This document shows positions 13,706 to 31,808 of a stretch of DNA of 38,366 bases, one piece after another; positions within the stretch are counted from its first letter, which is position 1; the number at the start of each line of letters is the position of its first letter. The translations under genes and the position numbers were made by a program. The notes beneath the pieces were generated by a model, which searched no databases, had not been told where the DNA came from, and saw only the letters and a program-made list of their open reading frames with translations. The DNA lies in IMG/VR virus record IMGVR_UViG_3300034072_000712, positions 1-38,366 of that record; one strand, written 5' to 3'. The stretch is from a virus.

Positions 13706-14007
13706 GACAGGCCACCCTCGTGCGCAACCTTCAGCGCCAGCCCGCCGATCACATTGGCGAACTGGGCTTCGGTCATCTCGGGGCCCAGGATGGCCTCGCC
13801 TTGGCACGCCATGCACCGCGAGCCGCTTTCCGATCGCAGGTAGTTGCGAGAGACATGGCCCTTGGTGCAGAACCAGTGCGGCTCTTCGAACCATGCATCA
13901 GGCACGACCATGAACATCTCGTCCCCGCGCGCCTCTGCCGCCTTGGCCAGATCGTCGCGCCACTCGACCAGGGCGCGGAGCATGGGGGAGAGATCGGCGA
14001 GGTTCAC
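13702..14007 (-). CDS. Small protein with Cys/His metal-site candidate
   Basis: This 101-residue protein has an N-terminal acidic helix region, then FCTKGHVS and, about 15 residues on, SRCMACQGE. The Cys/His set C-x3-H ... C-x2-C is a plausible zinc site. The C-terminal half (EMTEAQFANVIGGLALKV) is helical. It overlaps both neighbours by 4 bases. I do not recognise a family. It belongs to a run of five small genes inside the head-completion cassette, so an accessory rather than structural role is possible. Confidence 0.55.
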   Translation of the reverse strand: MNLADLSPMLRALVEWRDDLAKAAEARGDEMFMVVPDAWFEEPHWFCTKGHVSRNYLRSESGSRCMACQGEAILGPEMTEAQFANVIGGLALKVAHEGGLS

Positions 14008-14561
14008 GCCCCGTCATCCCCGTCGCTGTCTGCAATCGTGTCCGGCACGCGCGCTACCGGCGCAGCAGCGGGTTGCCCCAGCATATGCCTGATCATTTGC
14101 TCGGCCTGCGCGGCAGTAAACAGGTTGGTGCCGACCGGGGCACGGTGGAATTCGTGCGGCGTCCCCTGGCAGGAAACCCGCTCAAACGAGATGCCGCAAT
14201 CTGGCGCAAAATCGGTGGGCAGCTTCCACGCCAGAAACCGATCAACCATCTGCTTGATCTGCACGTCGGTCATTTCGACATCCTCGACCGGCGCCACTAT
14301 CGGCGCGCGCGAACCTTTCGGTTCGAAGAACCTGGCATCCGGCCCGCAACACTCGCGCTTGGTCAATGTCCTGGTGCGGCTGCGCTCCAGTGCCGCGCCT
14401 GCATGCAGCCGCTTGCGATAGCCGTTGCTGCCGGCGTCGAAGTGCAGCCCGATCAGGCGCACGCATGTGCCGCCGCTGATATGGTCGCAATCCTTGCACA
14501 GCACGCGGCCCGGCATCGGCCCGTTGACGGGATCACCCGCCGGGTTGGCGTTGGCGCTCAC
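14004..14561 (-). CDS. Cys-rich N-terminal domain fused to a common phage domain
   Basis: This 185-residue protein starts with GTG at 14561, overlapping the upstream stop (GTGA) with GGGGAG upstream. The N-terminal domain holds CKDC, a further Cys, then CC within KRECCGPDARFFEP (about residues 22-82), a likely zinc-binding fold seen in small phage proteins. The C-terminal part (about 95-165) has TDVQIKQMVDRFLAWKLP and GTNLFTAAQAEQMIRHML, which I recognise as a widespread phage hypothetical domain normally encoded alone. The combination looks like a fusion. Function is unknown. Confidence 0.55.
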   Translation of the reverse strand: MSANANPAGDPVNGPMPGRVLCKDCDHISGGTCVRLIGLHFDAGSNGYRKRLHAGAALERSRTRTLTKRECCGPDARFFEPKGSRAPIVAPVEDVEMTDVQIKQMVDRFLAWKLPTDFAPDCGISFERVSCQGTPHEFHRAPVGTNLFTAAQAEQMIRHMLGQPAAAPVARVPDTIADSDGDDGA

Positions 14562-14770
14562 CCCTCGATCTCCCCAACCGATCGCACCAGCAGGCGGGCC
14601 CCCATCACCACACAGTAAGCGACAACGATCGGCCAGAAGATCGAGAACACGATCCCGAACATCACCGTGATCGCCCCGCCGATCGGGTCCATCGGTTGGC
14701 GCGACTTCAGCCAGGTCCACACCAGGCCAATGGCCAGGCCCGCGACGTAGACGAGCAGTACCGTCTTCAT
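14558..14770 (-). CDS. Small inner-membrane protein
   Basis: This 70-residue protein starts at ATG 14770 (MKTVLLVYVAGLAIG), overlapping the stop of the upstream gene (ATGA). Two hydrophobic segments at about residues 3-17 and 28-55 predict a helical hairpin in the membrane. It is too small and isolated from the lysis genes to be called a holin. It is part of the accessory run of small genes at 13.7-15.2 kb. Confidence 0.5.
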   Translation of the reverse strand: MKTVLLVYVAGLAIGLVWTWLKSRQPMDPIGGAITVMFGIVFSIFWPIVVAYCVVMGARLLVRSVGEIEG

Positions 14771-15027
14771 GCCGCCCGCCTGCGGTTGCGCCTGCGCACG
14801 CGCCGGGAAATGTGCAGGCGGTTCGCTCTGCGGCGCAGATGTGCAGCAGCCCCACGGCTGCGGCGGCGTACCCAACCGCTATGCGCAAGGCGACGTGCCT
14901 TGCGGCGGCGGGTAGTAGTGCGCGGCGCGACGACGATGGTGATCGCGCGCTCCGACATCATCACCGGAGATGACAGGCCAAAGGCAAGCGCTGCTGCGAG
15001 GCCCAGTCTTGAGAACAGCCCAACCAT
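14767..15027 (-). CDS. Exported or anchored arginine-rich small protein
   Basis: This 86-residue protein starts at ATG 15027 (overlap ATGA with the upstream stop). It has an N-terminal signal-like segment (MVGLFSRLGLAAALAFGLSSP) followed by a 53-residue tail with about 22 arginines, grouped as RRR, RRRKARR, RRRSR, RRRAN, RRVRRRNRRR. No family is recognised. Such a tail could bind nucleic acid, lipopolysaccharide or another acidic polymer after export. Its start and stop fit the coupled operon, which supports it being a real gene despite the odd composition. Confidence 0.45.
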   Translation of the reverse strand: MVGLFSRLGLAAALAFGLSSPVMMSERAITIVVAPRTTTRRRKARRLAHSGWVRRRSRGAAAHLRRRANRLHISRRVRRRNRRRAA

Positions 15028-15233
15028 CAGAGAACCTCGAAGATCGGTTCGCCGCCAACGGCATTTGCTGTCCACAGGAACGCGGTTTCGAACTGGGTTC
15101 GACAGACAGCCATGCCGCGAGGATCGCAGTTCGCGGCCCTCATCGTGGCAAGCATTTCAGCCACTGCCTTGATTGCAGTCGCGGTCTTTTCGGTCAGCGC
15201 TGCTGCAGCTTCCGAATTGTCGATATCGATCAC
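15027..15233 (-). CDS. Acb2/Tad1 hairpin-like protein (candidate anti-CBASS sponge)
   Basis: This 68-residue protein starts with GTG at 15233, overlapping the connector gene stop (GTGA). It is two helices: residues about 8-34 (ALTEKTATAIKAVAEMLATM) and about 38-60, joined by NCDPRG. The second helix reads RGMAVCRTQFETAFLWTANAV, which follows the Acb2/Tad1 hairpin (DUF7681) pattern: D-P-R ... A-x-R-T-x-x-E-x-A/G-F-x-x-x-x-x-A-V. Characterised Acb2 proteins are small hexamers that sequester cyclic nucleotides made by CBASS and related defences. Whether the binding residues are kept cannot be judged here. Confidence 0.6.
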   Translation of the reverse strand: MIDIDNSEAAAALTEKTATAIKAVAEMLATMRAANCDPRGMAVCRTQFETAFLWTANAVGGEPIFEVL

Positions 15234-15796
15234 GCCATCACCATCCCGCGCCGCTGCGCGAGCCCTTCGAAAATCTTCTCGCGATCGGCGCTCATGTCGC
15301 CCGAAAGCGTGAAGCTGTAATCGCCGGCCCGCTCGCTGCGCAGGCCACCGCGATAGGAAAGCTGGAGCTGCACAAGCTGGATCGTCGCTTCGTCGCGCGC
15401 AGCCTGTTCGCCCAGCGGTGTATAAGTGATCTGCACCATCGGCGCCCAAAAGGTGCGCCCGTTGGTTCCAGTGGTCAGACGCTGCAGCGTGCGCCCGCCA
15501 TGCATCACGCGGTAATCGTCCGCCGCCAGTGTCACCTGGGCGGATGCGTCGCCGCTGTTGCCGGGATCGATCTCGATCACTTCGACAGGCGCGGCCGTGT
15601 CGATCGGCCGCACCAGGCGCAGCGTGCGCAGGTACGTTGTCGCCGGATCAGCCGGATCGCCCAGCAGCAGCTCGACCGGACCGGCCGGGCCAAAGCGCAC
15701 GTCCATTTCGCCGGCAATGCCGTCGATCATGGATTGCAGCTCAGCGTCCGAAAGGTCGCTGCCCGTGCGTTCCTTGACCCGGTCGATCAGCGCCAT
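15230..15796 (-). CDS. Head-tail connector protein, gp6-like
   Basis: This 188-residue protein starts MALIDRVKERTGSDLSDAELQSMID. The N-terminal helical region with a helix ending in G-x-M-D-x-R-F-G, followed by a central beta part (ADDYRVMHGGRTLQRL, VQITYTPLG) and a C-terminal helix, matches the HK97 gp6/SPP1 gp15 adaptor family that docks on the portal. It lies downstream of the capsid genes and upstream of the head-closure gene, the expected order. Confidence 0.65.
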   Translation of the reverse strand: MALIDRVKERTGSDLSDAELQSMIDGIAGEMDVRFGPAGPVELLLGDPADPATTYLRTLRLVRPIDTAAPVEVIEIDPGNSGDASAQVTLAADDYRVMHGGRTLQRLTTGTNGRTFWAPMVQITYTPLGEQAARDEATIQLVQLQLSYRGGLRSERAGDYSFTLSGDMSADREKIFEGLAQRRGMVMA

Positions 15797-28410: not shown

Positions 28411-28802
28411 GGCCAGATCCCCGAAGCCAAAGGCAGGCACACGACAAGCGCGATCACCGCCACCGCGCGCACGGCCTGATCCCAGAAGCTCCAGTCGCTC
28501 CGTTCGATCACGGCCACAGCGGGCTTCTCGTTGCCTTCCAAAGACCGGATGCTGATCGTCTCAATCGACTGGCGCCGATCCCGCAGTGCCTGCTCCATTC
28601 GCTCTACTGCGAAAGGCAGCGCCGTCGGCTCCAGGTTGACCGTGGCATAGGGTACGCTCAGCTCGTGCGTGTAGCCAAACAGCGGCGTCTCGATCCGGCC
28701 CATCACCACGAAGCCGGTGCCGCGCAGGCCCACGGCGATCGTCTGAACCTGGTCACAGGCGGCGGCTGCCTTCTCGGCAGCGTCGATCAGCCCGGCCATC
28801 AT
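28407..28802 (-). CDS. Hypothetical protein with C-terminal membrane helix
   Basis: This 131-residue protein is mainly a soluble beta-rich domain (RGTGFVVMGRIETPLFGYTHELSVPYATV), followed by a helix and a C-terminal hydrophobic helix of about 20 residues (AVRAVAVIALVVCLPLASGIW), so it may be tail-anchored. It begins at the MuB stop (ATGATG). I do not recognise it. Confidence 0.45.
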   Translation of the reverse strand: MMAGLIDAAEKAAAACDQVQTIAVGLRGTGFVVMGRIETPLFGYTHELSVPYATVNLEPTALPFAVERMEQALRDRRQSIETISIRSLEGNEKPAVAVIERSDWSFWDQAVRAVAVIALVVCLPLASGIWP

Positions 28803-29761
28803 GCTGCAAGCGCCCGTGCCGAGAGCTGCGACCAGGCGTCCTGCAAATGTTCCTTTGCCAGCGGACGCTGATCAGCCGCCGCGATCATCCACGCCAGTTC
28901 CAGCGCCATCGTCCCGCCGCGCAGTCCGCCCGGCATCCCCACGATCTTGCGCACCAGGCCAAGCGTGCCATCGTCTTCCACCTTCCACGCTTTGGCCAGC
29001 GCGTCGGCATCGGCCTGGAGCGGCAGCGGACGGATCATCCGCATCGAGACACGGCTGTAGAGCTGGGCAAACGCCGCGCTGCGTGTGCCGCCTTCCAGTT
29101 GCTGCATGACCTTGATGTTGCCCAGCAGGGCGATCCCAACGCCCGTGGCATCGTGCCAGCTGCGGACCTCCTCGATAGCCTTTTCCGAGAGGTGCTGTGC
29201 TTCGTCGATAATGATGAGCGGCTTCGACATGTTCCGGACGCGCTCGCGGATTCGCCGGGAAAGCTTTTGCGGCGTGCCCACGGCATCGCGCTCGCCCAGT
29301 GCCTCAAGCACTTCGATCTGCATGTTGTTCACACCAGCGGTCGAAGGCGACATGGTGGCGTGGAATACATTGGGAAAGCATGCGCGATACTGCTCGGCAG
29401 TCTTCGTCTTCCCGAGGCCAGCGCCGGTGGCGATGACGACGATGCGGCCGCGCTGTCCCCAAGTCAGCAGGCTGGTGATTTGCTCGCTTGTGGGCGTGGA
29501 AAAATAGTCGGGAAGCTCCGGTGCTTCGACCTCGATCCGTGCCTGCTCGTCGAGCAACTGCTGATAGCGATAGACCTTCTCGGCGAGGCGACGCTCGTCA
29601 CCCGCATAGCCCTTCGGGCTGCCGAACTGGCTGAGCGTGCCTTGGGGAATATCGATGCGCTTGGCCAGTTCCGACCAGCTCAGCTGGGTGCTGGTGCGAT
29701 GGTCGATCAGCCACTTGCGCTGCTCTTCGATATCAATGAGTGCGGTTGCCGGGTCATTCAT
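28799..29761 (-). CDS. B: MuB-like transposition ATPase
   Basis: This 320-residue AAA+ protein has an N-terminal helix-turn-helix (LSWSELAKRIDIPQGTLSQFG, about 27-47), Walker A GAGLGKTK (113-120) and Walker B LIIIDEAQ (182-189), then a sensor LLGN. Mu B selects target DNA and activates transposase. It follows the transposase gene after a 70-base gap with two hairpins, the second of which overlaps the AGGAG ribosome binding site, so expression relative to transposase may be set there. Confidence 0.88.
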   Translation of the reverse strand: MNDPATALIDIEEQRKWLIDHRTSTQLSWSELAKRIDIPQGTLSQFGSPKGYAGDERRLAEKVYRYQQLLDEQARIEVEAPELPDYFSTPTSEQITSLLTWGQRGRIVVIATGAGLGKTKTAEQYRACFPNVFHATMSPSTAGVNNMQIEVLEALGERDAVGTPQKLSRRIRERVRNMSKPLIIIDEAQHLSEKAIEEVRSWHDATGVGIALLGNIKVMQQLEGGTRSAAFAQLYSRVSMRMIRPLPLQADADALAKAWKVEDDGTLGLVRKIVGMPGGLRGGTMALELAWMIAAADQRPLAKEHLQDAWSQLSARALAA

Positions 29762-29831: not shown

Positions 29832-31808
29832 TTAATCGTCGCGCCTCACAAGCTTCAGCGCGCCGAAAACTCGATCTTCACTCTTCGCGGGATGGCTCTC
29901 AGGGAGGGCAGAGGGCGCAATCTTCAGCGCCGCCGCTGTCTGCCCACGATGACGAACCGGGCGCACAACTTGCGCCTCTGGCTTTTCAGGCTCCGGCGCA
30001 TCGACCTGCACCGTCACCAACTGCGGCATGGTCAGCAGGCCTTCAGCTTCCAGTCCGTCCCGAATCCGCTTGCGGTAATCGGCCACCATCTTGCCGGTCG
30101 CCTTCGCCTGGGCGGCGTCGAGAAACTGCACATCGCCCCACTGCTGCGCGGCGCAAAGGTAGTGCCCGGCCTGGTCGTAAAGGTGGATATCGCGCAGCAG
30201 GTTGTCGGGATCGAACCGCACCGTAACCGTCTGCCCATGGAACCGTGCGCACTCGGGTGACCAGTAGCGATTGCCGAACAGGTTGATTTCGCTGGTCTGC
30301 TTGTTGATCCGCTTCTGCTCGCCTGCCAGCAGCGCCCAGCGCATCGCCTCGGGCGATGCCTTGCCGATCGGCGCGGTGGCATAGGAATCGGCGAACACTT
30401 CGTCGAAGCTGCGCCCGCGGGCCGTCTCGGTCCTGCGGTTCATCTTGGCGTTGTGGCGGGCGATTTCCTTGTCGACGCGCGCCACGAATGCATCCCAGCC
30501 CACAGCCCGGCTGCCATAGTTCTCGGGTTTGGCAGTAGGGTTGTTGCCCACATAGGCCCCGTGGAACTCGGGATGCTTCGCCACCCGGTCGCACATGTCG
30601 CGGAACGCGCGTTCGATCGGCTTGGACTGGCCGCGATAGGGCGTCGCCCAGTGGATATGGATGCCAAGGCCGGTCAGCAGGCCGGTCGGCTCTTCTTCCT
30701 TGATCTTGAAGCGGAAACGGCTGTTGGCCCCGCCTGTGATCCACTTCGAGGCAAAGGCCCGCCCGTTGTCGAGCACGCATTCCTTGGGGATACCCCAGTT
30801 CTGGAACAGGTCGGCAAAGCATAGCCGCGTCTGCACCGCGCTTTCCTCGCCACCGATCCGCCAGGCCAGAATCTTGCGGCTGAAGATGTCCTGGATCGTC
30901 ACCATGATCGGACGGATCACGCGGCCTTCGCCCGTCTTTACAAACACGTCGAACTTGTGACCGTCGATGTTCACCACTTCCAACGCATGCAGGTGCGCCA
31001 CCGTGCGCCGCTGGGCCGGGATTGACCGGCGCAAGTTTTCCTCACCCTTCCGGCCAAGGCGCAGCACCTGCGGATCGACTTCGCGCTCCAGTTTGCGGCG
31101 GATCGAACGCTCCGAAGGCATCGGCAATCCGCGCGCTTCGGCGATATCGCGGGTGCGGTCATAGCAGCTGGTCAGTGTCGGCTGCTCCAGGCGCAGATAG
31201 TCCGAAAGGAAAACGCGCCACAGATCTTCATCGATATCGGCCTCGCGCCCGCCTGCCTTGCGGCGTGGTGCCAGCGCAACGATGCGGTTCTGCCGCGCCA
31301 CGCCTTTGATCAGCCTGCGCCAGTTCCATACCGTGGATTCGGCGATATCGTGCTCGATCGAAACGGCCTGCACCGCCACGTTCTTCAGTACGCCTGCCTG
31401 TTCCAGCAGTTCGATCTGCGCGATGATCCCGGCGCGGCGCTGTGCCTCGCCTTTCACCTTGTCGCTCTGCAGGTCGAACCATTTCCAACCTGCAGCCGTC
31501 GGATCTTCGGCTTCGATCAGCAGTGTCTCGCCGAGCTTTCGCGCCAGTTCGACGCGGGCCGAGCCCGGCAGCAGCGAAACGTGGAATTCGATTCCGCCAC
31601 CGCGCCCGGCGCGAGGCCGCGAAAGCGGATTGCCTGCCTTGTCGCACTGGATAGTCCAGCGATGATCGCGGGCATGCCGGTTCACCGCACGTTTGTCATG
31701 GGGCAGGCCCGGCAGGCGAAAATCGGCCAGCTCGGCTGCAGTGAACCACTCGCGTGCCTCACTGGCGGCATCGGCCTTGGTAACCTCTTGATGCGCCCTG
31801 TGCTTCAC
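29832..31808 (-). CDS. A: MuA-like DDE transposase
   Basis: This 658-residue protein starts with GTG at 31808 (GTGA overlap). An N-terminal winged helix region (WFTAAELADFRLPGLPHDKRAV) fits the Mu end/enhancer-binding domains. A further helix-turn-helix lies near 150-165. The catalytic DDE residues are visible: D282 (NIDGHKF), D347 (VLDNG) and E399 (KPIER). The C-terminal region continues as a beta-barrel (VRFDPDNLLRDIHLYD). It cuts phage ends and joins them to target DNA in integration and replicative transposition. Confidence 0.92.
   Translation of the reverse strand: MKHRAHQEVTKADAASEAREWFTAAELADFRLPGLPHDKRAVNRHARDHRWTIQCDKAGNPLSRPRAGRGGGIEFHVSLLPGSARVELARKLGETLLIEAEDPTAAGWKWFDLQSDKVKGEAQRRAGIIAQIELLEQAGVLKNVAVQAVSIEHDIAESTVWNWRRLIKGVARQNRIVALAPRRKAGGREADIDEDLWRVFLSDYLRLEQPTLTSCYDRTRDIAEARGLPMPSERSIRRKLEREVDPQVLRLGRKGEENLRRSIPAQRRTVAHLHALEVVNIDGHKFDVFVKTGEGRVIRPIMVTIQDIFSRKILAWRIGGEESAVQTRLCFADLFQNWGIPKECVLDNGRAFASKWITGGANSRFRFKIKEEEPTGLLTGLGIHIHWATPYRGQSKPIERAFRDMCDRVAKHPEFHGAYVGNNPTAKPENYGSRAVGWDAFVARVDKEIARHNAKMNRRTETARGRSFDEVFADSYATAPIGKASPEAMRWALLAGEQKRINKQTSEINLFGNRYWSPECARFHGQTVTVRFDPDNLLRDIHLYDQAGHYLCAAQQWGDVQFLDAAQAKATGKMVADYRKRIRDGLEAEGLLTMPQLVTVQVDAPEPEKPEAQVVRPVRHRGQTAAALKIAPSALPESHPAKSEDRVFGALKLVRRDD

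Follow-up and report, generated by a model that had tools for sequence, protein, structure and literature searches.

A hairpin-only relative of Acb2 and Tad1 among the head genes of a Mu-type phage, probably a counter-defence sponge without the dinucleotide site

Acb2 and Tad1 are "sponge" proteins, which sequester the alarm molecules of bacteria. Acb2, represented by T4 Vs.4 (PDB 7uq2) and PaP2 p26 (PDB 8h2j/8ixz), consists of two long antiparallel helices preceded by an N-terminal segment of its own, in which an invariant Y11 contributes, together with K26, R85 and P90 (PaP2 numbering), to the pocket for cyclic dinucleotides. In T4 Vs.4, the contacts to cGAMP are made by Y8, H11, K23, R79 and F82, and the hexamer interface includes L29, A66, A73 and A77 (PMC10097602). 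Either Y8A or F82C alone abolishes or weakens dinucleotide binding by T4 Acb2. Tad1 of a C. botulinum prophage (PDB 7uav, 8kbe, 8smd) shares the helical hairpin at its C-terminus and also binds gcADPR, in a site that depends on loops of an N-terminal beta-sheet domain (PMC12043709). In the hexamers of both Acb2 and Tad1, trinucleotides are held at the trimer interface, away from the dinucleotide pockets (PMC12043709, a review; PMC11044969).

The window, that is, the whole stretch of 38,366 nucleotides analysed here, is the genome of a Mu-type transposable phage of sphingomonad bacteria, with a MuA transposase (29832-31808) and MuB (28799-29761). Its head set is HK97-like, comprising a portal fused to a Mu-F-like part, an S78 protease and a capsid protein. 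The features of the locus under study are as follows, with residues numbered along the small protein.

15230..15796, minus strand, head-tail connector/adaptor gene (PHROG 442 "head-tail adaptor", E 2.6e-4), upstream of the hairpin gene and forming the near edge of a variable cargo slot
15230..15233, minus strand, GTGA overlap of the connector stop and the hairpin gene start; ATGA at the equivalent place in relatives L002 and L011/L094
15027..15233, minus strand, hairpin-only Acb2/Tad1-like gene of 68 codons plus TGA, with a GTG start
15135..15224, minus strand, predicted helix 1 (residues 4-33), the counterpart of Acb2's second helix, lacking the N-terminal GY-containing segment of Acb2
15057..15122, minus strand, predicted helix 2 (residues 38-59), which is the conserved one of the hairpin pair
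15117..15119, minus strand, R39, aligned with R67 of PaP2 Acb2 and with the arginine of SRENA in Tad1
15072..15098, minus strand, TQFETAFLW (residues 46-54), in which T46 and A51 correspond to T68 and A73 of T4 Vs.4
15063..15065, minus strand, N57, in place of a near-invariant, cGAMP-contacting Acb2 arginine (R85 of PaP2, R79 of T4)
15054..15056, minus strand, G60, in place of F82 of T4 Vs.4, which stacks on the cyclic dinucleotide

The frame had been singled out from the letters of the sequence as a candidate anti-CBASS protein of the Acb2/Tad1 type, and the accompanying description of the frame and its motifs proved accurate. The frame at 15027-15233 is open on the minus strand and translates into 68 residues (VIDIDNSEAAAALTEKTATAIKAVAEMLATMRAANCDPRGMAVCRTQFETAFLWTANAVGGEPIFEVL), with the three motifs originally named, DPRG, CRTQFETAF and NAV, at residues 37-40, 44-52 and 57-59, respectively. 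The proposed GTGA coupling to a connector gene was also borne out, as the GTG start overlaps the TGA of an upstream gene that matches PHROG 442.

Scans of viral contigs and bacterial genomes identified 12 distinct relatives of the gene in phages and prophages of sphingomonads, with Novosphingobium, Sphingopyxis, Sphingomonas and Sphingobium as named hosts; four of the viral contigs carrying the gene are the same prophages as four of the genome hits. In an alignment of the resulting branch of 13 members, the stretch TQFETAFLW is invariant (13/13), R39, A42 and G61 are almost invariant and a GGEPIF tail is conserved in most members, while the N-termini vary. Comparison of the window gene with six relatives gave dN of ~0.28-0.46 and dS of ~1-3, with most change at third codon positions. 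The 12 relatives, the nine invariant consecutive residues and the low dN relative to dS indicate that the frame is a real gene and not a chance one. The gene appears to be rare, since a search of 398 Sphingomonadaceae genomes with the branch alignment matched a single genome, already in the set. No matches were obtained when 50,697 phage records were searched with the protein by tblastn.

The original prediction expected a significant full-length match to the hairpin family in a profile search, an expectation that fails for the window sequence alone. Pfam PF24729 (Acb2_Tad1_hairpin) is its sole Pfam match, at 14.2 bits (E 0.051) and thus under the curated cut-off of 27 bits, and on this sequence alone is a lead rather than proof; the T4 Vs.4 control scores 70.3 bits. 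Searches of PHROGs and NCBIfam returned nothing useful, and phmmer against the PDB gave only one spurious match to a thioredoxin domain. The placement in the family is instead supported through the relatives. PF24729 is matched by 12 of the 13 branch members, with L012 (29.0 bits) and L008 (28.3 bits) over the cut-off. An HMM built from 18 Acb2 proteins (T4 Vs.4, PaP2 p26 and homologues) scores all 13 members at 16.8-30.7 bits, including 19.5 for the window protein, against a maximum of 7.7 bits among 1942 shuffled sequences. Likewise, hhalign of the branch profile against the 18 Acb2 proteins gave an E of 1.5e-9, where the best of 60 column-permuted controls reached 0.017. Pairwise BLAST of L012 against one Acb2 gave no match, so profiles are needed to make the link.

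The Tad1 hairpin was recovered weakly by a mixed profile searched against the PDB (E 0.018, aligned to RGMAVCRTQFETAFLWTANAV), with coinciding residues at R(-7), A(-4), T(0), E(+3), A(+5) and W(+8), corresponding to R39-A42-T46-E49-A51-W54 of the window protein. The R, T, E and A positions coincide also in the 76-aa "Acb2 homolog 43" of PDB 9ptq (GREKSVFKTKLEEA; GREKSVFKTKLEEAMFF), of which a partial sequence was compared. A search for a paper on this entry found none, and the likeness suggests that diverged short homologues are already under study. Helical hairpins are commonplace and the single-sequence E is only 0.051, so that a chance resemblance between short helical proteins might be suspected. 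This is extremely improbable, however, given the agreement of 12 of the 13 members on PF24729, the motif common to Acb2, Tad1 and PDB 9ptq and the genomic slots shared with Acb2 genes; the far lower scores of the shuffled and permuted controls led us to reject it.

The two-helix hairpin foreseen in the original prediction was recovered in an AlphaFold model of the window protein made with the branch alignment, with a mean pLDDT of 86.5 and no predicted strand. The protein thus resembles Acb2 in its two long antiparallel helices, in the conserved second helix with the pattern R..A..K/R-T......A and in being encoded by a small phage gene of the kind often found between head genes in late operons. 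It is unlike Tad1 in being all helical and 68 aa long, with no counterpart of the beta-sheet domain that makes most of the gcADPR site. Foldseek searches of the window model against the PDB and BFVD returned no significant match, and the L012 model found Tad1 chains only at a non-significant E of 2.5-4 (~30% identity over 42 columns); a bare hairpin holds little fold information.

The function first proposed was sequestration of cyclic nucleotide signals such as 3'3'-cGAMP, with an alignment of the ligand-binding residues as a check. The outcome of this comparison is divided. Among the 18 Acb2 proteins, Y11 is present in 18, and K26, R85 and P90 are each present in 17; all four are missing in the window branch. 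The segment carrying Y11 is absent, with 36-46 residues ahead of the conserved threonine as opposed to at least 49 in Acb2. The position of R85 is occupied by N, S, H or V (R in 0/13), and P90 is kept in 1/13. On the other hand, an equivalent of R67 is kept in 12/13 members, and both T74 and the interface alanine are kept in all 13; R67 is itself not universal in Acb2 (14/18). The branch differs from Acb2 further in its invariant W54 and E49, at positions where Acb2 has mostly A/W and Q, respectively. An intermediate was observed in L012 (5884-6081), which retains an Acb2-like N-terminal segment (DKGQPLTDEER) with Q for the invariant Y.

Sequestration of 3'3'-cGAMP by the Acb2 mechanism is therefore not supported, judging from the residues present, and this part of the original prediction did not stand. 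A full, functional Acb2 acting on this molecule would suit the Pfam family name and the homology, but is very unlikely, because the cGAMP-contacting residues of T4 Vs.4 (Y8, H11, K23, R79 and F82) are missing or replaced, and the loss of Y8 or F82 singly suffices to impair dinucleotide binding. A plain cGAMP-binding Acb2 was rejected on the absence of Y11 and the counts for R85 and P90.

The gene product is instead a probable counter-defence sponge that would lack a dinucleotide site. With modest confidence, we propose a minimal hairpin of the Acb2/Tad1 superfamily, most likely serving as a sponge for cyclic trinucleotides. Such a protein would comprise the two-helix core alone, lacking both the N-terminal helix that Acb2 has and the beta-sheet domain found in Tad1, and would assemble into a trimer-of-dimers hexamer as known for both. 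A cyclic trinucleotide (cA3, cAAG) may sit at the three-fold axis of this hexamer, and its capture during infection or prophage induction would shield the phage from trinucleotide-signalling CBASS. We infer the hexamer, the nucleotide binding, the class of ligand and the anti-CBASS effect from these comparisons. Trinucleotides are the most likely cargo because the dinucleotide pocket is gone while the R-A-T-E-A face has been kept under strong selection, and trinucleotide binding may accordingly be taken as a leading guess. Cao et al. (2024) reportedly describe contact of the trinucleotide with R67 of PaP2 Acb2; the assignment of ligand is weak. If trinucleotides are bound, a hairpin of 56-68 residues would demonstrate that a counter-defence sponge can work with nothing but the trimer-axis site.

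A sponge for some other signal, for example of the gcADPR type, or one with a re-invented dinucleotide pocket in which N57, E62 and the GGEP tail stand in for R85 and P90, was also considered. Conservation of the GGEPIF tail would fit substitution, as opposed to simple loss, of the missing Acb2 residues, and Tad1, with the same hairpin, does bind gcADPR. However, the branch has no conserved N-terminal aromatic residue for stacking, its N-termini differing among members, and the beta-domain loops required for the gcADPR site of Tad1 are absent here, leaving this reading unlikely.

The position of the gene bears on another alternative, in which the hairpin homologue has lost nucleotide binding and works as a small oligomeric phage protein with a structural or regulatory role. 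The gene follows the connector in the window and in L002, L003, L005, L011 and L013, and lies one gene further on in L004. It is located between the terminase and a Mu-type portal in L006-L009 (Pfam was used to check the terminase in L007 and the portal in L007 and L008; the remaining assignments follow the shared layout), ahead of the tail sheath in L010 and ahead of Mu gp36 in L012. Every known copy is in a virion-assembly operon, the window gene and its L002 and L011 counterparts begin within the end of the connector gene, and ligand binding is only inferred, all of which would suit a structural or regulatory role. Against this, the protein occurs in four distinct slots, adjoining unrelated head genes, and the gene is present in only 2 of 11 relatives with a connector 64-85% identical to that of the window, the others having unrelated small frames or nothing between the connector and closure genes. 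An essential structural protein was rejected on these grounds, and the distribution among the 11 connector relatives marks the gene as optional cargo rather than part of the virion; the structural or regulatory reading as a whole is decidedly unlikely.

The slots of the trinucleotide-sponge candidate are comparable to those of Acb2 genes. In Pseudomonas phages AV002 and Ps60 the order is capsid-x-[Acb2]-adaptor, in Marinobacter PS6 terminase-[Acb2]-x-portal, and in RcapMu capsid-x-[Acb2]-gp36 adaptor, while the Acb2 gene of Ab9 adjoins the protease. Others, including T4 vs.4 and PaP2 p26, are located outside the head genes. From its position, the hairpin protein would be produced late. The slot before gp36 in L012 is that of RcapMu gene 44 and of an Acb2-like protein in L044. 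Among relatives with the same head module, the interval from connector to head closure (window 14000-15230, L091-L101) is a variable cargo slot with differing small frames of, for example, 69, 89, 104 and 116 aa, and may hold other counter-defence genes. Adjoining the hairpin gene downstream in the window is an 87-aa frame (14767-15030, minus strand; RRANRLHISRRVRRRNRRRAA) whose N-terminus is hydrophobic and whose tail is rich in arginine; it is found also in L002, L091 and L093 and has no Pfam match.

A further, speculative extension of the trinucleotide sponge concerns Panoptes-type defences, which detect sponges through decoy cyclic dinucleotides. The Y8A and F82C changes in T4 Acb2 stop Panoptes activation, and both positions are lost in the hairpin branch. 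It is conceivable, if improbable, that the branch shed the dinucleotide pocket of Acb2 and kept only trinucleotide binding, so that it could silence trinucleotide CBASS while evading such sensing; a sponge of this kind would represent the minimal core common to Acb2 and Tad1. If the branch does bind trinucleotides, the two binding activities of Acb2 would be separated in nature, and it could cleanly be tested whether immunity based on decoys (Panoptes) pushes sponges off dinucleotide binding. Searches of 200 genomes each for mCpol (Panoptes) and bacHORMA_2 gave no matches, and no control match was obtained either.

The hosts do possess cyclic-nucleotide defence, as indicated by their CD-NTases, SAVED domains and CBASS loci. 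Of 200 Sphingomonadaceae sampled, 17 have a SMODS-type CD-NTase, as do 2 of the 5 genomes that carry the hairpin gene in a prophage. SAVED domains were present in 5/200, four of them sharing a contig with a CD-NTase that lies within a few kb. In the sampled sphingomonad CBASS loci, PADLOC profiles recognised cyclases accompanied by phospholipase, 4TM and 2TM effectors. An effector specific for trinucleotides was not found beside these loci, which counts against the trinucleotide reading.

Genes of this branch are missed in annotation by single-sequence Pfam cut-offs. The record of one Acb2 homologue, RcapMu44 (L085, 2977-3267), describes it as "similar to cyclic-nucleotide binding domain", which fits the later discovery of Acb2. 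Several other Acb2 homologues in phage records (L090, 1986-2216; hits H26, H75, H77 and H79) carry the label "NAD/FAD-utilizing enzyme", probably a propagated misannotation.
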